The notes under the pieces: model-generated | Seen by the model: the letters and a program-made list of their open reading frames with translations, nothing else | The model's database searches: none | Told to the model about the DNA's origin: nothing | Origin: a virus | IMG/VR virus record: IMGVR_UViG_3300025598_000199 | Location: 1-22,024 of that record | Strand: one strand, 5' to 3' | DNA length: 22,024 nt | Translations under genes and position numbers: made by a program | Shown: positions 4,109 through 19,512 of the stretch, piece by piece | How the letters are laid out: every line of letters starts with the position of its first letter | Numbering within the stretch: position 1 is the stretch's first letter

Positions 4109-4423
4109 TTAAAACCCTTTATGTTTTGGATTTTTGTGCTCGCCACTGGTAATTTTGCAATCATCTAAATCAATTTTTCCGCCTGATTTCATACGACGTT
4201 TGCCTGTTGAATCCAAAATATGATGGTTATACCCACCATACTCATTGTCACGTTTGTCACGCGAGCGTCGCGCACCTTGTAAAGTACCTGCCTTACCGAC
4301 AGTCTCACCCGTGCGTTTACTGATTATTGAAAAAGGAGCGCCTTCGTTCTTGTCTTTTTCTTTGTTGTAAACAGGAGCATCTGACTCTGCTTGGTACCAA
4401 TCGACATTAGGTTTGACTGCCAT
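4109..4423 (-). CDS. Small basic protein of unknown function
   Basis: I do not recognise this 104-residue protein. It is very polar, with many Lys, Arg, Asp and Glu and no hydrophobic segment. A central part reads SIISKRTGETVGKAGTLQGA, which could be a short beta hairpin plus helix, followed by an RRSRDKRD basic run. The C-terminal third has K-S-G-G-K-I, one of the basic Gly-Gly motifs scattered in this cluster, and one cysteine. Two adjacent ATGs exist (4426 and 4423); the second is chosen because GGAG lies six bases upstream rather than three. Position between the DUF6321-type gene and the adaptor suggests a minor virion or assembly component, but nothing in the sequence proves it. Confidence 0.6.
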   Translation of the reverse strand: MAVKPNVDWYQAESDAPVYNKEKDKNEGAPFSIISKRTGETVGKAGTLQGARRSRDKRDNEYGGYNHHILDSTGKRRMKSGGKIDLDDCKITSGEHKNPKHKGF

Positions 4424-4435
4424 CATTTACTCCAA

Positions 4436-4957
4436 TTACCAGCCGGGACATTTCCAACGTTTTAATGATGCTTTTGCCCTTGGAGCATCACCACTTGCAT
4501 GTTTAACAACACCTGACATTCTCGCGCAAAAACTGTCTTTGCGCGAACCGCCTTCAGGTTGTGGTGCCTTCAAGTGCGATCCTGTTTCTCGATTGTATTT
4601 TGCTCGACCTTTTTCTGTAAGTCCTGCCCCTTGTTCTGTAGGTTTTTTCTCACCTCGCCCAACAGCGAGAGAAACTCCACCATCTTTCTTGCGAACAGTT
4701 TTAGCAGATTCCACAAAAGCTTGAGCACTGGGAGCGCCCTTGCTGCCAGGCTTGCGCATATGTTCTTTAGATCCATGTTTAATCCTTTCTTGCTTTGCGT
4801 GGATATTGGCATAAAGACCGCCGCCAGACTTAAATTTCTCGCCTGTATCGGCATGCACAAATTCTTTACCAACTTTTTGCGGAACACCACCCACACCACC
4901 TTTGGTATGGGCAGCTGCTTCCATCAATCTATGTTGAGCGGGTGATTTACTTGGCAT
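4436..4957 (-). CDS. DUF6321-like phage protein
   Basis: This 173-residue basic protein has two recognisable ends. The N-terminus (KSPAQHRLMEAAAH, then GGVGGVPQKVGKEFVHAD, about residues 4-36) matches a short motif often seen at the start of small phage structural-cluster proteins. The C-terminal part (about 112-173: GLTEKGRAKYNRETGSHLKAP, then SRKDSFCARMSG and the end RWKCPGW with C144 and C170) matches what I remember of the DUF6321 family, whose function is unknown. Between them are two basic Gly-Gly motifs (K-F-K-S-G-G and K-K-D-G-G-V). The gene starts two bases after the stop of the 888-residue gene and has only a weak AGG-type ribosome site, so coupling is likely. Overlapping frames on both strands are shadows. 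Confidence 0.65.
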   Translation of the reverse strand: MPSKSPAQHRLMEAAAHTKGGVGGVPQKVGKEFVHADTGEKFKSGGGLYANIHAKQERIKHGSKEHMRKPGSKGAPSAQAFVESAKTVRKKDGGVSLAVGRGEKKPTEQGAGLTEKGRAKYNRETGSHLKAPQPEGGSRKDSFCARMSGVVKHASGDAPRAKASLKRWKCPGW

Positions 4958-7645: not shown

Positions 7646-7665
7646 AGGGGAGCCGTAGCCCCCCT
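7646..7665 (-). promoter_or_regulatory. Intercistronic hairpin with a C(UACG)G tetraloop
   Basis: Read on the minus strand the 20 bases AGGGGGGCTACGGCTCCCCT fold into an 8-pair stem (one G-U pair) closed by a UACG loop with C-G closing pair, the exceptionally stable UNCG type. It lies nine bases after the stop of the repeat-protein gene and 19 bases before the 888-residue gene. No run of T follows, so it is not a standard intrinsic terminator. mRNA processing, 3'-end protection or translational insulation are more likely. The fold is directly readable; the role is inferred. Confidence 0.6.
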
Positions 7666-7674
7666 GACCTATTA

Positions 7675-9354
7675 TTACTTCATTGAACCACCACGTCGAC
7701 GAGCAGGTACTGAAGGTGTGCCTCTAATTTTCTCTTTCAAGTAATCCACACCTTGCATTACCTTTCTTGGAACATACATCAAAGCGTCGTCTACCATTTT
7801 TGAATCAGCTAAGTTTTCAGCTTTTTCACGATCGTAGTAACCTTGATACGCACGGTTCAATTGCTCTGTTGAATACTCAGGCTCTTTAGGTTGCCTTTTC
7901 ATACTACCTACGCCATCTCCCTCACTAAAGTGGTGAACGTTTCCACCACGTTTGTAAGTTCCAGATTGCAAGGTATTTGCCACAGGTGGGTGTTTAACGC
8001 GCATAGGCATCTTTACAGATTTGCCCATGTCATTAACATTCCCCCCCGTGGCGTAGGCTTTTTTTGAGGTTTTACCCCCATGCTTATAACCGCCAGCATT
8101 AGCAAGTTTCACAATACCAGTGGTGGTATGTGATTTGCCTTTTGGCGTGGAATTAGCAGGACGATTTTCCCAATTGCCACCTTCAACAGTATTGCGGGTG
8201 TCATACTTATCAATTGCGCCACCATCTGCTTTGTGGTGCATCTTGGCTTTGCCACCATGTTTAAAACCACCTGCATTGCTCATTGACACGCCACCAGTGG
8301 CTCTTGAGCCGCTGAACGGACGTGCGCTGTGCATGTCGGTGTTTTCGTAATAGTGTTCATTACCTTCAATCGTGCCACCCATTTCGCTTTTACCGCGGGT
8401 TTCACTTTCGTTGGTTTCGCTAGGAATTGAGCTACCAGTAGCGCGACCACCTGCAGCATAGTGATGTTTAGCTTTTCCACCGTGCTTATAGCCACCCTTG
8501 TTGCCAAGATTAACTTTTCCGGTTTTGCCACTGGTGTGATCCATGTGTTCGCCATCATTCATCATGTGAACATAGGGCGCAACACTTTTCTTAACCGTTG
8601 TTTTGGTCATATCTGAATCAATTTCACCACCACTGGCGTACTTACCACCTTTGCACATTGCCTTGTGGTGCTCACACATCTTTTTGTGATGTGCTGAACC
8701 ACCTTCTTTGTGCATCTTAGCGTGGTGTTTAGCCATATGCTTGTGATGTTCCAACGAACCCTCTGGATGACCAGAAATGCGATGGACTTTACCGCCGTGC
8801 GCCATGTGCTCATGGTGCATACGACCACCATGCGCTTTATGAGCCATACCGCCATGCTCACTATCCTTCATTGATTCATGATGATGAAGTTCTTTTTCAA
8901 GCTTCTCGATCATCTTGTGGTCAGCAGATCCACCTTTTTTCATGCCCAACAAGGCTTTTTTAACCATTGCGGCGCGCATGGCTTGCTTCGCAGGTGCCAT
9001 ATTAGCAATCGCAGCAGGACTCATTGCGCGATTAACCGTAGGCATACCTTCACCAACACCTGTCATGCCAGGCATTGCACCACCCATACCTTTGTGAGCA
9101 ACTTTTCCACCCTTAGCATACAGGTTGGGGTTCATCGCTTTCATACGATGCATCATGGATGGCTTTTTAGGGCTGCTACCAGCTTCTGATTCAAAAGCGT
9201 GATGCGCGCCATGCATGTGATGCATTTCCATCGGTTTGTGACCACTTTCGTGACCACCTTTTGCATGATGTTTTACTTTGCCGCCCTTTTTTAGCTTCAA
9301 GCTTACACCGGGCTCATCCGTGTACATCTTTACCATCGGTTTAAATTCAGACAT
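7675..9354 (-). CDS. Lys/Gly/His/Met-rich repeat protein of unknown function
   Basis: This 559-residue protein is extremely biased. Residues 1-240 are packed with His, Met, Lys and Gly-Gly (HHMHGAHH, MHHEHMAHGG, HHKKMCEHHKAMCKGG). Its only cysteines, near 227 and 234, sit in a C-E-H-H-K-A-M-C cluster that could bind metal. A helix at about 105-160 (AAIANMAPAKQAMRAAMVKK, then EKLEKELHHHE) is the only ordinary-looking part. Residues about 246-440 hold three diverged repeats centred on G-G-Y/F-K-H-G-G-K. The C-terminal 75 residues (YSTEQLNRAYQGYYDREKAE onward) are more globular, ending RRRGGSMK. No signal peptide or membrane segment is visible. ATG 9354 follows AGGAGGG, an excellent ribosome site, suggesting strong expression. 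Virion, DNA-binding or metal-binding roles are inference; I know no defined family. Confidence 0.7.
   Translation of the reverse strand: MSEFKPMVKMYTDEPGVSLKLKKGGKVKHHAKGGHESGHKPMEMHHMHGAHHAFESEAGSSPKKPSMMHRMKAMNPNLYAKGGKVAHKGMGGAMPGMTGVGEGMPTVNRAMSPAAIANMAPAKQAMRAAMVKKALLGMKKGGSADHKMIEKLEKELHHHESMKDSEHGGMAHKAHGGRMHHEHMAHGGKVHRISGHPEGSLEHHKHMAKHHAKMHKEGGSAHHKKMCEHHKAMCKGGKYASGGEIDSDMTKTTVKKSVAPYVHMMNDGEHMDHTSGKTGKVNLGNKGGYKHGGKAKHHYAAGGRATGSSIPSETNESETRGKSEMGGTIEGNEHYYENTDMHSARPFSGSRATGGVSMSNAGGFKHGGKAKMHHKADGGAIDKYDTRNTVEGGNWENRPANSTPKGKSHTTTGIVKLANAGGYKHGGKTSKKAYATGGNVNDMGKSVKMPMRVKHPPVANTLQSGTYKRGGNVHHFSEGDGVGSMKRQPKEPEYSTEQLNRAYQGYYDREKAENLADSKMVDDALMYVPRKVMQGVDYLKEKIRGTPSVPARRRGGSMK
8035..8520 (-). 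repeat. Three diverged repeats encoding the GG(Y/F)KHGGK core
   Basis: Within the 559-residue protein, cores start at residues about 279, 355 and 413. They share G-x-V/I-x-L/M-x-N-A/K-G-G-Y/F-K-H-G-G-K followed within 8-12 residues by an A-x-G-G motif (YAAGGRA, KADGGAI, YATGGNV). Spacings are 76 and 58 residues, so linkers vary while cores are kept. This pattern suggests selection on the core rather than recent duplication. On the plus strand the reverse complement of the core is visible three times as a recurring CCACC-GCTTATA/TTTAAA-CC type string. Confidence 0.7.
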
Positions 9355-9366
9355 GATGCCCTCCTA

Positions 9367-10611
9367 TTAAGCTTGGTTCACGCCAAGAGTGCCTTGGCGC
9401 GTAGAGTTGGGGCCAGAACCAATAGCAGGAATGGCAATCGCCATTACCAATCGTTTGGTTCCATCAGTAGCACTAGATGGGATATAAGTGCCTCGAACAT
9501 CACCTGTTGACGATGTTGCAGGGTTAGTCATATCTGCTTTAACCCATGTACCTGCGTCGTAACCTGCTGTGTTGTTCCAACCTGCATTAACGATATAGGC
9601 ACCATCAATTGCACGAACAGGCAAACCAAGCACATCAGTTGTACCTACAGTCAAGGCTGTACCTGTAGCACCACCAATAGCGATTGAGGTGATTTGGTAA
9701 AACGCTTTGGTTGTATTAACCGCAGTAGATACAGCAGAACTAGTGGTAATTGCTTGAGTCATTGCTTGACCGTAGTAATCGTAACCACTGATAGTTGCTG
9801 TCTGAGGAGCTACACCTAATGTGTAAGTCAAACCAGTTGGTGTGCCTGCTGTTGTGACTACTGCAGCACCTGCCGTGGTAGTTAAAGTAGCTGTGGTAGC
9901 TGTAACTGCCGTCAGAATATAGGTCGTTGGGTTTGAATATCCAGTGATTGTTCCCGTGCCACCCAAAGTACCAGAAATTGTCAAATATTGACCTGACACT
10001 AAACCAGTTTGTGAGGTGTAAGAAATCTGACCACCAGTGCCAGTAATAGCAACACCTGCTAATGTTGCAGCGGCTGCAGTACCAGTTGTGATGCTAAGAG
10101 CACGAGGAATATCCAATTGAATAACTGTCGTACCATCAGTGCGAACTACAGACTTGGCAGAAGTGCCTGCTGTTAATGTCAGATTGCCTGCGGATGCAGG
10201 AGTTTGTGATGCGGCAATATTAGCCGTTTGTTTTGTCTGTGGAATCGTATCCCACATGTAAACGCGACCTAACGGGCCAACACCCAAAGACATCGGTGAT
10301 GGATCGCCAAGCAATGCGTTACCTGATGCATACATCGTTACTGCGGATGAAACAGTCGATGATTGCGACAAAGTATATTGATTTAAACCATTAGCATTTT
10401 GTCCTAGTGATGCGGTGATGTAACTGTTAGCAGTTACGCCAGAACCTGAAATATATTGACCGACAACCAAAGGATCGCCTGATTGAACAGTTGCGACAGT
10501 TAAAGTTGTAGTTGAAATAGTACCTGTAACGACCGAAGTTGCGGCTTGGTTACCAGTACCCATATAGGTTGCGCCTGAACCTAAAAACAGGTCATCTGAA
10601 AATAAAGGCAT
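9367..10611 (-). CDS. Virion structural protein following the major capsid gene, possibly decoration or head fibre
   Basis: The 414-residue protein has a conserved-looking backbone, with PMSLGVGPLGRVYMWDTIPQ at about 106-125, DIPRALSI at about 167-174 and YDYYGQAMTQAI at about 277-288. It is interrupted by two Thr/Ala/Gly-rich beta insertions. The first spans about 24-95; the second, about 190-265, contains SGQYLTISGTLGGTGTITGY and resembles the E1_FCCH-like modules of the 888-residue protein. Proteins with this backbone commonly follow capsid genes in phages, hence the call. ATG 10611 has AAGGAG upstream. It lies directly downstream of the intrinsic terminator after the capsid gene, so it should be expressed below the capsid protein by readthrough, unless it has its own promoter, which I could not find. 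Confidence 0.65.
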   Translation of the reverse strand: MPLFSDDLFLGSGATYMGTGNQAATSVVTGTISTTTLTVATVQSGDPLVVGQYISGSGVTANSYITASLGQNANGLNQYTLSQSSTVSSAVTMYASGNALLGDPSPMSLGVGPLGRVYMWDTIPQTKQTANIAASQTPASAGNLTLTAGTSAKSVVRTDGTTVIQLDIPRALSITTGTAAAATLAGVAITGTGGQISYTSQTGLVSGQYLTISGTLGGTGTITGYSNPTTYILTAVTATTATLTTTAGAAVVTTAGTPTGLTYTLGVAPQTATISGYDYYGQAMTQAITTSSAVSTAVNTTKAFYQITSIAIGGATGTALTVGTTDVLGLPVRAIDGAYIVNAGWNNTAGYDAGTWVKADMTNPATSSTGDVRGTYIPSSATDGTKRLVMAIAIPAIGSGPNSTRQGTLGVNQA

Positions 10612-10684: not shown

Positions 10685-11599
10685 TTACACGCCAGGCGTA
10701 CCGTAAGCAGCGCGTGGGTCAGTAAAGCCCACAGCGTAACGCTCAGTAGCCTTGTAACGCATTGTGTCAGTCTCAAAGTCACCTTCCATGGTTTTCTCAA
10801 GACGACGACGCATCAGTAGCTTAAAGCCTTCTGGAGCGTCGGTCTGAACCCACCAAGCGGTCGATGAAGTCAAACGTGACAGAACAGCAGCACCCTCGTC
10901 AAGCAAACCGATAGATTTGATTGGGTTGATGTCGTTGTTTGCATTACCAGTACGCAATACTGATTTCAACAAAACTTCGGCTTGGAAAATGTTGCCTGGA
11001 GCCACGATCAATTGACGTGGTACCAAACGGATTTTCTTACCGTTGTTGTCTACAGCTTGACGAATCTGAATCAACATCTGCTCGAGCGATGTTTGCGACA
11101 AAACCGCGGCAGTAGCCAACTGGTTGCTGAAAGTGCCGTTGACGATTGGGTGCGCTGTACTAATCAGCGACACGCCATCACCACCTGGGTAAGCACTGTT
11201 GAATGCGAAGTTCAACACGTTTGCTGACAACAATTCTTTGGTTTCCACCAAAGACTGTGCCAAGTGACGTGCGTAAACCTGACCCAAACGAATATGGTCG
11301 CCGTCTTCAACGAGAACCTTAGTCAGTGCAAAGGCCAAGCCATACACTTTGTAGAGGTAACGTTGCAAGAACAGAACACCACCTTGCTGATACGTTACTG
11401 GCGTACCGTCAGGAAGTTGTGGTGCGGCACCAAATCCGTACAGGACTGGTTCTTCATGGTAATTCCTTGGAATACCATCTTCTTCGCGGAAAACGCGTGA
11501 CCATTCGTCAGCGCGTTGATCATAAACACCGTCGAAACATTCGTTGAGAATTGGCTCAACAATCGAACGGAAGTCAGTACTTCTCATTGGAGCAGCCAT
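10685..11599 (-). CDS. Major capsid protein, HK97-fold type
   Basis: This 304-residue protein has the length and layout of small HK97-fold coat proteins. An N-terminal helix-rich arm (about 1-45) is followed by an E-loop-like region. Further on come STAHPIVNGTFSNQL (about 147-161), SLEQMLIQIRQAVDNNGKKI (spine-like helix, about 171-190), PRQLIVAPG, and a C-terminal part with WWVQTDAPEGFKLLMRRRLE and YAVGFTDPRAAYG. The D-A-P-E-G-F-K and Y-x-V-G-F-x-D-P-R signatures recur in phage coat proteins I recognise. ATG 11599 follows AAGGGG at good spacing. It is preceded by scaffold and decoration-like genes and followed by a strong terminator, as expected for the most abundant virion protein. No cleaved N-terminal propeptide site or dedicated protease gene is evident, so assembly may rely on the separate scaffold. 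Confidence 0.88.
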   Translation of the reverse strand: MAAPMRSTDFRSIVEPILNECFDGVYDQRADEWSRVFREEDGIPRNYHEEPVLYGFGAAPQLPDGTPVTYQQGGVLFLQRYLYKVYGLAFALTKVLVEDGDHIRLGQVYARHLAQSLVETKELLSANVLNFAFNSAYPGGDGVSLISTAHPIVNGTFSNQLATAAVLSQTSLEQMLIQIRQAVDNNGKKIRLVPRQLIVAPGNIFQAEVLLKSVLRTGNANNDINPIKSIGLLDEGAAVLSRLTSSTAWWVQTDAPEGFKLLMRRRLEKTMEGDFETDTMRYKATERYAVGFTDPRAAYGTPGV

Positions 11600-12790: not shown

Positions 12791-13765
12791 TTAGCTGTTT
12801 CGGTTCTGTCTGTCATAAGCAATGAAGTTTTTAATCATCTTTGCTTTACGAACTGGGTTGTCCCAGGCACCCGCATCCTTCATGGCTTTCACCCGATCTG
12901 GTGAAAGCACAAATTGGGTTCTATTAGAACCACCGTATGCGGCTGAGGCTTCCCTTCCTGAACTTCCCACAACATTCCTTGGTCGTCTGACACTACGGGA
13001 ATCGTCATCATTGTCACTATTGTACCGATGAGGTAATTCTTTTTGCAAACGGCTATCAAACTCTTCCCAATAATCACTATCGGCAGGATTCCAGCCTTGA
13101 TTAGCCATGATTTCATCAACACGTTTTGCAATCTTGCTATCTGAATCACCAAGGTTTGCGTCATACCATGGATTACGTTGAATCCATTGCTGTGCTTGGC
13201 GCGCGACTTGCGGATCTTGCCTCTGTTGCGCGGGTTGTTTCAATTCACGATCGGCTTGATTGCGCAATTGCTTTAATTGACGAATTTCGTCTTGTGCAGC
13301 TTGCCAAATGGTTTGTGCTTCCACAAGACCATTACCATCTTGGTTTTGTGCAGCCTCGGCAACCTTCATTTTTGCCCAATCAAGCTTGGTCTGAGCATCA
13401 TCAATTGCACGATCAACACGATGGATTTGTTGATTTTTACCTTCACGTTCGACATCATTCAAACGACGCCTAAACTCTTCGTTTTCGCGTTGTAACTGCT
13501 GTAAACGAACGTCTTTTTCTTGATTTGTCTTACGAATTAAATCTTTTTTTGCGCGACGACGATTACGTTTAGCCGCGCGCACTTCTTCATTGTCATCAGG
13601 ATGGTCGTTATCACCATCTGCAGACACCTCACCACCGTCTTTGGCGCGCTCAAACCCATTTTGCTCTTCGTTTTCTTCTTCGATTAGCATGTTGTCTGGC
13701 ATTTCAACTACGGCAGAGCCATCTTGCGACTCAATAACTTCTAATTCTTTATCGGTATCAGCCAC
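12791..13765 (-). CDS. Probable scaffolding (capsid assembly) protein
   Basis: This 324-residue, highly charged protein has the profile of a scaffold: an acidic disordered N-terminus, a long predicted coiled-coil at about 60-175 (RRRAKKDLIRKTNQEKDVRL onward, many Q, E, K and R), and a basic C-terminal end (AGAWDNPVRKAKMIKNFIAY) that could contact coat. Residues 15-24 are DGSAVVEMPD, repeated twice in the portal N-terminus. Translation starts at GTG 13765 with TTAGGAG upstream and overlaps the end of the co-chaperonin gene by eight bases. Position between portal and major capsid genes supports the call. No protease motif is visible, so the scaffold is either released intact or cleaved by a host or distant enzyme. 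Confidence 0.75.
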   Translation of the reverse strand: MADTDKELEVIESQDGSAVVEMPDNMLIEEENEEQNGFERAKDGGEVSADGDNDHPDDNEEVRAAKRNRRRAKKDLIRKTNQEKDVRLQQLQRENEEFRRRLNDVEREGKNQQIHRVDRAIDDAQTKLDWAKMKVAEAAQNQDGNGLVEAQTIWQAAQDEIRQLKQLRNQADRELKQPAQQRQDPQVARQAQQWIQRNPWYDANLGDSDSKIAKRVDEIMANQGWNPADSDYWEEFDSRLQKELPHRYNSDNDDDSRSVRRPRNVVGSSGREASAAYGGSNRTQFVLSPDRVKAMKDAGAWDNPVRKAKMIKNFIAYDRQNRNS

Positions 13766-14637: not shown

Positions 14638-17077
14638 TTGGAGCTCCTTGTTGTGGTGCGGCAGGTGCCGCGGGGTTTACAGGTGGAACCTGTGGTTGAG
14701 CTTGAGCAATCTGCTGGATCGTCTCATGCGTTAACTTTGCATTCTCAATAGCAATTTTGGTTTGGTTATCAACCAAAGATTTTTTGGAATCCGTTTCCAA
14801 TTTTGCTTGAGCCAATTGCACATCTGCTTGATCTTTCTGTGCTTTACGTTGTGTTTCAGCCTGACTTGTTTGCAATACCACTTGGGCTTCTGGTGGCATA
14901 GGTGGTGGCTGAGGCTGGCTACGTTGTTGTGCCATTTGAATAAGTTTTTGGAACGATGGTGCAAATGAACCAAAGACTTCATTCACATCCATCATTACGT
15001 GCGCGCCAACGGTCGTAAATACTTTATCAATCTCCGGCGTGTAATTCGGATTGTCGTAGTCATCAATCGGTTTGCCAGTCGCATCTTCAACGTATCCATT
15101 AGAACGGTTCAAGTACCACAACGTCATGTGTTGCTTCAAATGCTCAATCAAATTGTTCAAGTAGTTAGGATCTGCAAATGGCGATTGCCCTAAGAATGGA
15201 TTCATCGCAAATTGCAAATGATCTTGAATGTGCGCAATTTGATCTTGTTGGATATATGCATACGCTGCTTGACCAATCAACATGGCAGCGTTTTCATCCG
15301 CGGACGTGCGTTGCTCTGGCGCTGGTACGTCATTCATGATGTCGTTGATGTTAGGCACCTTCATTTGCTTAAGCAATCTTGAGATGACTTTGCCCATCTT
15401 GAACTGATCAGGGAACTGTGTTGCCAACTGCAACACTGCCTGAGATTGCGCCATGCGCTGCGTCTCAGAAAAAATGTGGGGATCAGATACTGGTTCCACA
15501 TCCGTGTTCTTTGCAAAGTCTTCACGCGTGACTTCTAAATTTGTCACAACGTCGTTTTTTTGCATATCGTCAAAATACCAACGATTCAAACGACAAAGAA
15601 TTTTTAATACTCGAGCTTGGCTTGCATGCAGGCGCGCATGGATAGATGAATAAACTTGCGAACCCTGCTCAATTAAAGCCTGTGTGGTGCCTACAGGCGA
15701 GTTTGCCGACACGTCTGCTATCTTCTCTTCAGCAGTGGTCACAACGCTCTTTGTAGCCTTATCCAAGAAGCCTAAGAGCTCAAATAGCACTTGGCTTGGT
15801 GGATTAAAAGGCATAGGCATTGCAATCTGGCGAATATCTTGTACGCCAGGCGCGCCTTCGATCTCTACAATTTGGGTGACATCAACTTGTTGCGATTGCC
15901 CAGATATCTTTGCACCCTTGAGCTTAAGCATAGTAGCGGCGTTATTGATATGAGCACTATCCAATAAAGCGCGCAAAGAACCAGTAAGAGCGGCAGACAA
16001 ACCACCGATCAAGTGAGGTAGACCAATTGCATACGCACCTCGCCAAGGGATAAATTTAAATTCCACAACCCAATCAAGTTTGGTCATGGTTTCATCATGC
16101 TCTTCCCAATTGCGGTACAACCCAACTACTTCCCGATCTAATACGTCAATCATCAAGATATAGGGGGCGCTTTTTCCGCGAGTCTTTTTGTCCTCTTCTA
16201 ACTCGAGCCAAGTGTAGATGTGATAAACGGTACGGATTCCATCTTTGTTGTCTTCAAAGACTTTACCCTCAATCTTGTTGTTCGCCTTTGCGACCTTGCC
16301 TTCGTTTAGTGATTCCGTTGCATGGATGTAGTTGATATCACGGTACATCCCAGACTTAATTCGACGATCAAACTCATATTCGGTAATCTCGTGGATCTCA
16401 GCTGCGCGTTGAGCCGTGTAGAAATTGGTTGCAGCAAACGGCAAAATTACCCGGTCAATTGGCAAAAACTCAATGCATGGGCGCTTCTTGTTCTCGTCAT
16501 ACCAAAGCTTCATGTACTGCGAGCCGCCTAGAGGCAACTGGGTTAGAAGTTGCTCTTCTTCGTCCCTAAACTCTTCAATCTGTTCAGTAATCTGCCAATT
16601 TAAAAATTCTGTTTTACGTTCAGCGATTGCTACTTTTTGATCGTCTTGTTTACCAATGATCTTTGACTTAACTGGCCCATCGGGTGGAAAAAGCTCTTTA
16701 ATTGCTCTTGCCGCAAAATCTACGCAACCTTCAGCCATAGCAGGATGGACTACCTTTGACGCACCCATAAAGGTTGCACCACCAGGCGCATCATTTCCCA
16801 TGCCAGTACGTTTAATGCCCTCTTCATACTGCTTATCGCGCAGCTCGCGCGCTTCTTTGTCGCTCTCTAATAAATCAAGATAGCGCACAACCATGTCTGA
16901 CATGGTGTTGAGATCCACCGTATCAGCCAGGTTGTCGTAGAACTCGGGATTGAATTCAGGCCCATCATCCAACTCAACAATAGCCGACCCGTCTGGCTGC
17001 TCTTCCGTTTCAATGTCCGGCATGTCCACCAGCGCAGACCCATCTTCTTGTTCTTGGATATCGAGATCGTCTGCCAT
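14621..17077 (-). CDS. Portal protein
   Basis: The 818-residue protein has the size and features of podovirus-type portal proteins. It contains a helical N-terminal wing with YLDLLESDKEARELRDKQYE (about 66-85), a beta region with KLWYDENKKRPCIEFLPIDR (about 190-210), PHLIGGLSAALTGSLRALLD in the middle, a P-F-N-P-P-S segment, and AEEKIADVSANSPVGTTQAL, a conserved portal element. Residues 12-21 and 29-38 carry two DGSAxV acidic motifs. The end, from about 720, is Pro-rich, then a coiled-coil (about 730-792), then a Pro/Ala/Gln tail. Portals form the dodecameric channel through which terminase packages DNA. ATG 17077 shares one base with the upstream stop and follows AAGGAAAGGG. Neighbouring terminase and scaffold genes support the call. 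Confidence 0.88.
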   Translation of the reverse strand: MADDLDIQEQEDGSALVDMPDIETEEQPDGSAIVELDDGPEFNPEFYDNLADTVDLNTMSDMVVRYLDLLESDKEARELRDKQYEEGIKRTGMGNDAPGGATFMGASKVVHPAMAEGCVDFAARAIKELFPPDGPVKSKIIGKQDDQKVAIAERKTEFLNWQITEQIEEFRDEEEQLLTQLPLGGSQYMKLWYDENKKRPCIEFLPIDRVILPFAATNFYTAQRAAEIHEITEYEFDRRIKSGMYRDINYIHATESLNEGKVAKANNKIEGKVFEDNKDGIRTVYHIYTWLELEEDKKTRGKSAPYILMIDVLDREVVGLYRNWEEHDETMTKLDWVVEFKFIPWRGAYAIGLPHLIGGLSAALTGSLRALLDSAHINNAATMLKLKGAKISGQSQQVDVTQIVEIEGAPGVQDIRQIAMPMPFNPPSQVLFELLGFLDKATKSVVTTAEEKIADVSANSPVGTTQALIEQGSQVYSSIHARLHASQARVLKILCRLNRWYFDDMQKNDVVTNLEVTREDFAKNTDVEPVSDPHIFSETQRMAQSQAVLQLATQFPDQFKMGKVISRLLKQMKVPNINDIMNDVPAPEQRTSADENAAMLIGQAAYAYIQQDQIAHIQDHLQFAMNPFLGQSPFADPNYLNNLIEHLKQHMTLWYLNRSNGYVEDATGKPIDDYDNPNYTPEIDKVFTTVGAHVMMDVNEVFGSFAPSFQKLIQMAQQRSQPQPPPMPPEAQVVLQTSQAETQRKAQKDQADVQLAQAKLETDSKKSLVDNQTKIAIENAKLTHETIQQIAQAQPQVPPVNPAAPAAPQQGAPNGNIG

Positions 17078-19512
17078 TATTTACCCTTTCCTTTTGACAT
17101 CAATTCAATGCGCATCGTATCCACAGTCGTTGGGGGTTTGTACGCAGGATATTCTGTTATGTGCGATTTGTAGTGTTTCTTAATCACATGCTCAGGCATA
17201 TCTTCGATGGATTCGATTCCAATCTTATGCGCGTTGTGCTCTTGCGCATGGAAACTTTGCTCGGGGAATGCCATGTGATCTTCACTTAAATGATGGTGAT
17301 AGATCGATCCACCATCGGCTTTACGCACGATCTTGATTGGCTCTGGTGGTACGTATTCTTTACCAGCAGCAGCAACCTGGGCTTCAGGTGCGTCAATCTC
17401 ATACTCGCCTTTATTTTTCTTGGCGTGAGCTATCTGCTCAGGGCCAACATGGTGAGTGAAAGACGTGTGATGTTGGAATATTGGCGTTGATTTTGTAGGT
17501 GTAGTCATCAATATCGCACCAGCCATCTTACCGTTGCGCGTGACAAACCTGTCTTTAGGTAAGAAATCCTCGTCTTTAAACCGTGAATCCGTTGGGATCA
17601 TGTGCTCAACAGTTTCAGTTTCACCAGTCTCTTTGTTCAGTTTGCGCTCAGGCACATTCACTAAGCGTGGATGCAAAATGTGTTGCTTCTGGTATTCGTA
17701 TCGTTGCCCTTTATGTACGCGATGACCATAGTGACCTTTTGCTTTTGTCGTCGGCTCATGATCGGCACCATAATGCGCTTCGTCGCCCTCAGCCTTCTCT
17801 TCTTTACTGAGCTCTTCCACTGGGCGACCTGTAGACCAATACTTGGCATATTTGATGTGCTTCTGCATTGCCTCATCTTCAGGCGAATCGCGGCGCACGT
17901 TGGTCACCATGTACGAACCCTTGGGCGGCGTTTTGTTTCCTTGCTCGTTTACAAAGTCTTTTCCAGAAGCATTCTGTGCGGTAATGGTTGATCGTACGCG
18001 CTGCTTATCGCGGTCGATGTTCTCACTGATCGACTTGCCTTGTTTAGTCTTTGGCCCAATGTTGGAATGCGTCACATAGTACCCATTCTCAGGATCATGC
18101 AACTCATTGGTCTTGCCGTATGAGTTTGCCACAATGATGGGCTTACCCTCGGCTTTACGCTGATCATTCAATCCTTTAATTACATGGCGCGATGATACGT
18201 CTGTCTCGTCCACCACATTGGGGCGAAACAATGTCCTGATGTTTTTCTTATCTAAATCATTCGATACCTTACGCAATGATCCTGTGTGCGCCAAAATCCA
18301 ATCCTCGGTCATCTTGGGATCATGCTTGGCTTGCTCATGTGCTGCGCGCCGTACCGCGGCATTCACATACTGTTGCTCTGCATTGGGTGCGAAACAAGTA
18401 CCTTTGCTTGTGTCAACGATTCCATTCTTATCCACACCACCCGAGCACCCGACTGTAGCGCCTGGGCAGGTATTAATTGCATGATGCTTGGAATCGTTTC
18501 CATGCCCAGACGTATACAACGAATGCCCAGCAACGCCTTTTGACGCAAACCCTTCGTAGGTTCTACCTTCTTCGTCGTGTTCGTGCTTGACCGTATCAAG
18601 CTTCTCACTGGTATCTAACGTGTCAGCGTTTGAGCCAATATGCTTTGCCTTGCGCAGGCGCTCTAATGCAGCCTCTTCGTTTGCGGTCTGTTCGTGGATG
18701 GGCAAACCAAAATGATGATTTAGGATCTTCTTGTGCAGCGATCCAACCTGACCGATAGTCAGTGGGGGGCGGTGCTCACCGCCATACACTTCTGCGCGCG
18801 CTTCATTTAGATCACGCATGCCTTCGACTTTCTTGCCCTGCTTCGGGCCAGTCCCGCCATATGTCTTACCTTCCCACATGTGCCGCGGAACCGTAATTCC
18901 TTTGACGCCACCGAAGCCTTCAGCAGGAATCGTAATCCGCGTTGACTCATCTTCAACTGCACCACCCTTAGCCATGCCTGCAGGCGCGTTCGATGGTGCC
19001 AATGGTGAAGACAACCCCATTGCTTGCATCTTCTGACCCTGTGGCGTCATTGACAACAAGTTAGGCGGTGCGCCCGTTGGTGCTCCGCCCGTGGCTCCAG
19101 TTGGAGCTCCACCCGGCATGATCTGTGGTGCAGGTGCAATCGGTTCACCAGCTTGTGGCTGCTGACCTTGTTGCGGCTGCTGTGTTGGTAATCCACCCTG
19201 AGTTGGGGGCGGAGCTGTCAACTGTTGACCAGGCTGTTGTGCGTTTTGATCTACGCCACCAATAGGCAATCCACCCGAAGTAGCCACGCCACCAACATCT
19301 GGCATGCCTGACTTGCTCGCATTGGGATTCATGAATACCTTTGGATGCATATCCAAGGCTTCTTCCACGCCGATGTCATCCATCACATCAGGGTTGGCAT
19401 GCTTTGCGACTTCCATGCGATATTGCGATAACAATGGTTGATCCATGGTCTGTCCTTGTACGTTGCCACCATCGGCTTTCTTTTGCATAAAGTGCTGGTT
19501 TGGCTTTTTCAT
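17077..19512 (-). CDS. Large multidomain protein with a possible GP88-like cysteine domain, unknown function
   Basis: This 811-residue protein has several parts. Residues 1-60 include KKADGGNV and an EVAKHANPDVMDDIG helix. Residues about 75-180 are a Pro/Gln/Gly-rich linker. Residues about 190-300 are a charged region with GITVPRHMWEGK. Residues about 345-490 hold NTCPGATVGC (C349, C356), GTCFAP (C373), EDWILAHTG, IRTLFRPNVVDETD and NSYGKTNELHDPENGYYVTH. The CPGA-x3-C start followed by a later C-F/Y-A resembles the GP88 family of phage proteins, but this is a weak match. The rest is polar, with KADGGSI near 731-737 and His clusters. It sits between terminase and portal. Start ATG 19512 has AGGAT upstream at rather long spacing. 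A virion or ejected protein is one idea; an enzyme is another. Confidence 0.6.
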   Translation of the reverse strand: MKKPNQHFMQKKADGGNVQGQTMDQPLLSQYRMEVAKHANPDVMDDIGVEEALDMHPKVFMNPNASKSGMPDVGGVATSGGLPIGGVDQNAQQPGQQLTAPPPTQGGLPTQQPQQGQQPQAGEPIAPAPQIMPGGAPTGATGGAPTGAPPNLLSMTPQGQKMQAMGLSSPLAPSNAPAGMAKGGAVEDESTRITIPAEGFGGVKGITVPRHMWEGKTYGGTGPKQGKKVEGMRDLNEARAEVYGGEHRPPLTIGQVGSLHKKILNHHFGLPIHEQTANEEAALERLRKAKHIGSNADTLDTSEKLDTVKHEHDEEGRTYEGFASKGVAGHSLYTSGHGNDSKHHAINTCPGATVGCSGGVDKNGIVDTSKGTCFAPNAEQQYVNAAVRRAAHEQAKHDPKMTEDWILAHTGSLRKVSNDLDKKNIRTLFRPNVVDETDVSSRHVIKGLNDQRKAEGKPIIVANSYGKTNELHDPENGYYVTHSNIGPKTKQGKSISENIDRDKQRVRSTITAQNASGKDFVNEQGNKTPPKGSYMVTNVRRDSPEDEAMQKHIKYAKYWSTGRPVEELSKEEKAEGDEAHYGADHEPTTKAKGHYGHRVHKGQRYEYQKQHILHPRLVNVPERKLNKETGETETVEHMIPTDSRFKDEDFLPKDRFVTRNGKMAGAILMTTPTKSTPIFQHHTSFTHHVGPEQIAHAKKNKGEYEIDAPEAQVAAAGKEYVPPEPIKIVRKADGGSIYHHHLSEDHMAFPEQSFHAQEHNAHKIGIESIEDMPEHVIKKHYKSHITEYPAYKPPTTVDTMRIELMSKGKGK

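Follow-up and report, generated by a model that had tools for sequence, protein, structure and literature searches.

A short tag centred on two glycines, [YFMLK]-[KA]-x-G-G-x-[VIAM], is repeated in a lysine- and glycine-rich (KGG) family of phage proteins, and comparison of sequences revealed its strong enrichment in three further, unrelated families of the head module, which is a new finding; no description of the motif was found in the open-access literature searched. The occurrence of a common tag within the head-gene block suggested a shared signal during virus head building. The KGG family is represented here by a 559-aa protein encoded on a 22-kb genome fragment from an uncultured virus (IMGVR_UViG_3300025598_000199; the stretch of 22,024 nucleotides analysed is referred to as the window). 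This protein, which belongs to a fast-evolving, previously unnamed family, is a late product of the head module in a P22-like group of podoviruses.

All features described below lie on the minus strand, and coordinates refer to the window. The head operon is P22-like, with the gene order terminase (PF03237), portal (phrog_1216), a weak GroES match, a scaffold-like protein assigned from its position (12791..13765), a major capsid protein identified by Pfam as Phage_capsid_4/gpT-like (10685..11599), a 414-aa protein that is cement-like from position alone (9367..10611), and the gene of the 559-aa KGG-repeat protein (P0001; 7675..9354), which is supported by its ORF, homologs at the same locus and dN/dS. 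This order supported the head-operon location given in the first-pass annotation. The window also encodes an 811-aa polyvalent-type protein with a Pfam GP88 domain (17077..19512), a 173-aa mosaic basic protein (4436..4957) and a 105-aa small basic protein (4109..4426).

The ORF first annotated at 7675–9354 exists, but it is read on the minus strand (9354..7675), the plus-strand reading being filled with stops. Its ribosome site, AGGAGGG (9359..9365), lies 4 nt ahead of the ATG, and a Shine-Dalgarno core precedes 55 of 59 homolog starts. A terminator-like hairpin, GGGGGGCTACGGCTCCCC (7647..7664), lies directly past the stop codon; a stable hairpin was found at this position in 59/59 homologs (mean MFE -18.1), 46 of them with a C(UNCG)G loop, and it is likely the terminator ending the capsid transcription unit. 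The coding status is secure because the dN/dS of the KGG gene was 0.05–0.23 and the Shine-Dalgarno core and the hairpin are conserved at starts and stops, respectively. Moreover, the richness in Lys, Gly, His and Met was confirmed to be extreme relative to the other structural proteins of the window (Lys 12.3% vs. 4.0%, z 10; His 8.9% vs. 1.9%, z 12; Met 7.9% vs. 2.3%, z 9; Gly 14.3% vs. 9.0%). The protein contains 25 GG dipeptides (shuffle mean 9.9, maximum 19) and 13 HH pairs (shuffle mean 4.4), the latter bearing out the reported His clustering, and the CEHHKAMC cluster is present at residues 227–234 (8653–8676). The three annotated G-G-Y/F-K-H-G-G-K repeats were recovered as GGYKHGGK (8473..8496), GGFKHGGK (8248..8271) and GGYKHGGK (8071..8094), and three matches to GG[YF]KxGG compare with a shuffle mean of 0.001.

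A scan with the capsid protein returned about 600 relatives, from which 80 loci were kept, and a further scan that used the alignment of the family as query matched 547 stretches. Freshwater viral contigs with a family member number in the hundreds, and MW202545 (Caudoviricetes sp. ctpbd312, Manatee Spring) also has one. The MW202545 protein UOF78453.1, annotated as hypothetical, is a direct homolog at the same capsid-adjoining locus (44% identity over 87%) and differs from the window copy in having only 2% His and a C-terminal Cys. In each of the 48 loci with sufficient upstream sequence, a homolog adjoins the major capsid gene, and these loci share the same capsid type at 89–98% identity. 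While the capsid barely varies, identity within the KGG family drops to 26–70% and length ranges from 248 to 628 aa, indicating that the description of the protein as giant was overstated. The long KGG protein was not seen after the capsid gene in records with a capsid of ≤77% identity (Caulobacter phages, HTVC023P, CRP-901, Pag-Yong1 and DSL-LC04). As a separate observation, PQ492659 (Limnohabitans phage DC33) is classed under Inoviridae yet has 39 kb and a podovirus-like portal, likely a taxonomic mislabel.

The best conserved part of the family is the N-terminal peptide (residues 1–27, MSEFKPMVKMYTDEPGVSLKLKKGGKV; 9274..9354), whose consensus over 25 residues is FKPMVKMxTxEPxVxLKLKKGG, with F4, M7, K9, M10, T12, E14, P15, L19–K22, G24 and G25 invariant among 51 homologs. 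The most conserved internal core, towards the C-terminus, spans residues 410–473 (TTTGIVKLANAGGYKHGG..AYATGGNV..SGTYKRGGNV; 7936..8127); its consensus is GGYKxGGxxKKxYATGGxVxxxG...SGTFKKGG and its invariant positions are G426, G427, K432, A435, G437, G438, V440, G444, G465, T466, G470 and G471. Constraint was stronger on the core than on the linkers, in agreement with the selection on the core that had been proposed. The tail of the family carries swappable cassettes, one of which matches phrog_7884 in 7/51 homologs, and the cassette KSDAELKYILKDA had no match within the phage collection. In addition, 41 of 59 homologs, the window copy not among them, end in a Cys encoded by TGC or TGT (e.g., ...KKRGGSVKC); outside the family this GG-plus-Cys ending was found in a few small proteins, which was not significant (p 0.28). 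Several small unrelated ORFs (such as those of L033, L017 and L057) terminate in GGxV..SCW or ..NW.

The 559-aa protein is predicted to be mostly disordered, with a mean AlphaFold2 pLDDT of 54 (window copy) or 51 (a short homolog). The model contains a predicted long C-terminal helix in the variable tail (residues 496–543; 7726..7869) and a His/Met/Cys-rich helical cassette that includes CEHHKAMC (residues 190–237; 8644..8787), with helices at 200–216 and 221–233; only 7 family members have this cassette. The window copy matched no Pfam, PHROGs or NCBIfam entry, none of 51 KGG-family members matched any Pfam family at E 0.01, and profile searches with the family alignment gave only the phrog_7884 match of an inserted cassette. 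Together with the predicted disorder, this is consistent with the statement that no standard structural fold explains the protein. One match in a PDB sequence search, to a yeast checkpoint protein (E 0.007), was rejected as chance-like. Likenesses to double-glycine (C39) leaders and to the ubiquitin-like LRLRGG were dropped because key upstream positions are not conserved.

In the KGG family, GG is flanked by a hydrophobic residue at -3, K or A at -2, and V, I, A or M two positions after GG. Counted with the pattern [YFKMLRH][KA]xGGx[VIAMT] and compared with shuffled sequences, tags per protein were 10.7 vs. 0.24 in the KGG family, 3.24 vs. 0.11 in the polyvalent family upstream of the portal (95% of members tagged), 0.59 vs. 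0.06 in the small mosaic basic proteins and 0.19 vs. 0.00 in the scaffold. In the window, the tags are KADGGNV, MAKGGAV and KADGGSI in the polyvalent-type protein, MKSGGKI in the 105-aa protein, and RAKDGGEV (13625–13648) in the acidic N-terminal tail of the scaffold-like protein. With a relaxed motif and a composition-only control, z was 94 for KGG, 33 for polyvalent, 7 for mosaic and 19 for scaffold proteins, although the loci are related and such shuffle scores overstate independence; the relaxed motif is present in only about one third of scaffold homologs. Unbiased GG contexts were deduplicated, which reduces and does not remove the effect of kinship, and [KA] at -2 then reached 68% in KGG, 40% in polyvalent, 56% in mosaic and 35% in scaffold proteins (backgrounds 26%, 17%, 26% and 17%), compared with 16–18% in four control groups (background 13–16%). 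Enrichment of V, I, A or M at the same downstream position was found in all four tagged families. The tag is absent from the capsid (0 in 65 homologs), portal, GroES and tail-fibre families and is not enriched in the 414-aa protein; a weak signal in the adaptor came from one homologous RATGGTT-like site, which is not the tag. Furthermore, pN was 0.032 at tag sites vs. 0.110 in the rest (pS 0.353 vs. 0.426), so that nonsynonymous change at tag sites is about one third of that elsewhere. DSL-LC04, whose capsid is 41% identical and which lacks the long KGG protein, has three tags near the N-terminus of a PcfJ-like protein between terminase and portal, and further tags in small proteins.

The slot between terminase and portal turns over quickly, because it holds GP88 in the window and PBECR5 (E 5e-17) or a weak ART-PolyVal match at other loci. 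The small basic proteins are mosaics of the cassettes SKSPAQ, KSLKKAG, LYANI, KSKSKKA and DUF6321, for which eight multi-cassette arrangements were found; in the 173-aa protein of the window, SKSPAQ, LYANI and DUF6321 are linked via FKSGG and KKDGG. GG was present at 43/43 cassette junctions (of seven kinds and not independent by descent), nearly always with K or A at -2, and in nearly all of them the next cassette directly abuts. In pelagiphage Eistla and cyanophage S-RIP2, LYANI and DUF6321 are each encoded by an ORF of their own, located between the scaffold and capsid genes; the cassettes are conserved as stand-alone ORFs in T7-like pelagiphages and cyanopodophages, whereas in the window phage group they are fused through the GG tag. 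In S-RIP2 SWQG_00019 (L182:3983-4495), LYANI is apparently fused in frame to a predicted membrane or outer-membrane-like segment, which may be an artefact of annotation or a frameshift.

Among the functions suggested at first, that of a glue inside the capsid or an ejected protein, which would be present in virions, fits best. Binding of Ni, Cu or Zn through His-Met-Cys clusters is very improbable. The clusters of the window copy do exceed shuffles, but they are lineage-specific: His content is <4% in 44 of 60 complete homologs and ≥8% in 14, a CxHHxxxC-like cluster occurs in only 3 of the 60 and the His cassette in 7, and His/Cys ligands are not conserved across the homologs. Low-His homologs retain locus and architecture, and metal binding is therefore not the core function. 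Condensation of nucleic acid, also suggested at first, is compatible with the net charge of complete homologs (+24 to +47), and a disordered, Lys/Gly-rich polycation with Tyr/Phe, similar to KGG/RGG boxes, could condense or neutralise packaged DNA (or RNA) with no partner for the tag. However, the GG motif also occurs in acidic settings (the scaffold tail, and the polyvalent protein, whose KADGG and MAEGG have Asp/Glu at -1) and is therefore not simply a nucleic-acid patch; moreover, the best conserved part of the protein is the N-terminal peptide and not its charge. We consider this explanation unlikely.

A recognition element is the simplest reading, because the proteins in which the short peptide recurs are unrelated yet are all encoded in the head module. 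We tentatively favour a role of the 559-aa protein as a multivalent internal-head organiser that uses a shared loading tag, while regarding this as short of probable. The protein would consist of concatenated copies of a short recognition tag and would be basic and for the most part disordered; one shared head partner would read the tag, which would bring internal proteins into the procapsid. The N-terminal peptide may dock the protein once, and its many tags, with its charge directed towards DNA, may enable it to organise, through multivalent contacts, cargo packaged along with the genome and probably also ejected with it. The capsid-adjoining locus (48/48), the tag enrichment, the constraint at tag sites, the tags in DSL-LC04, the polyvalent carriers and the predicted disorder all point in this direction. 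Against it, tags lie exactly at cassette junctions, a position equally compatible with a linker or with a cleavage site, the ejection-type proteins of the whole MW202545 genome have no clear tag, and the scaffold carries it only in part of its homologs. The main rival to a loading tag is protease cleavage, which we judge rather doubtful: as with T4 gp21 and SPN3US gp245, GG would be the site of a head-maturation protease, by which the 559-aa protein would be split into small, basic peptides of the head, and the mosaics would be separated into their cassettes. Cleavage explains the junctions better than a loading tag does, given that GG occupies every junction type and directly abuts the next cassette in nearly all, that the cassettes exist as separate ORFs in Eistla and S-RIP2, and that in SPN3US one protease cleaves at a motif common to several internal head proteins (PMC10052503). 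On the other hand, no maturation peptidase was found in the window head module or among the scanned MW202545 proteins (where the only peptidases were S74 and an M15_4 endolysin), the capsid protein is untagged, and some tags are at extreme C-termini with nothing beyond them (KKRGGSVKC). The junction position and the swappable C-terminal cassettes of the KGG family would also suit a flexible hinge or recombination seam for the fusion and shuffling of cassettes, with no recognition involved; yet the same specific residues flank GG in four unrelated families but not in the controls, pN is low at tag sites, tags occur at C-termini and one family consists mostly of tags, all of which make a seam improbable. 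A broader proposal, which is possible but speculative, is a GG code in a large aquatic podovirus clade, in which one peptide, read by a head component or a protease, would govern how the scaffold, the injected polyvalent effectors and the small basic cassettes are loaded or processed, the 559-aa protein serving as a dedicated hub with many tag copies.

How phage proteins that are loaded into the head and co-injected with DNA are selected is understood mostly from T4 and a small number of other phages. If the favoured reading is true, the tag common to scaffold, effector-type injected proteins and the repeat protein would be a testable loading or processing signal in many uncultured freshwater phages, and the injected proteins of such phages would be recognisable from sequence.

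The composition of the KGG family resembles the Pfam KGG repeat (PF10685) of GsiB/YciG-type stress proteins, which are hydrophilic and contain repeated Lys-Gly-Gly, and LEA-like hydrophilins; the PF10685 profile matched 0/51 members. Polyvalent proteins form a class for which packaging and injection have been predicted (Iyer et al., 2017; PMC5512222). The large tag-bearing protein of the head module carries domains of that set, PBECR5 at one locus and a weak ART-PolyVal match at another, and would thereby be a candidate member; GP88 of the window copy is not named in that article. In contrast to polyvalent proteins, which combine two or more disparate domains in one polypeptide, the 559-aa protein shows no enzymatic domain that could be recognised; the terms linker, low-complexity and glycine do not occur in that article (PMC5512222). 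The window phage differs from T4 and SPN3US in its motif, in its untagged capsid protein and in that no matching protease, such as the cognate prohead protease of T4-type systems, was found among the head-module proteins scanned. Nevertheless, four of its head-module families share one short GG motif and their products would be internal head proteins, by analogy with T4 CTS/gp21 and with SPN3US gp245, where a single protease cleaves several internal head proteins at one short common motif (PMC10052503).
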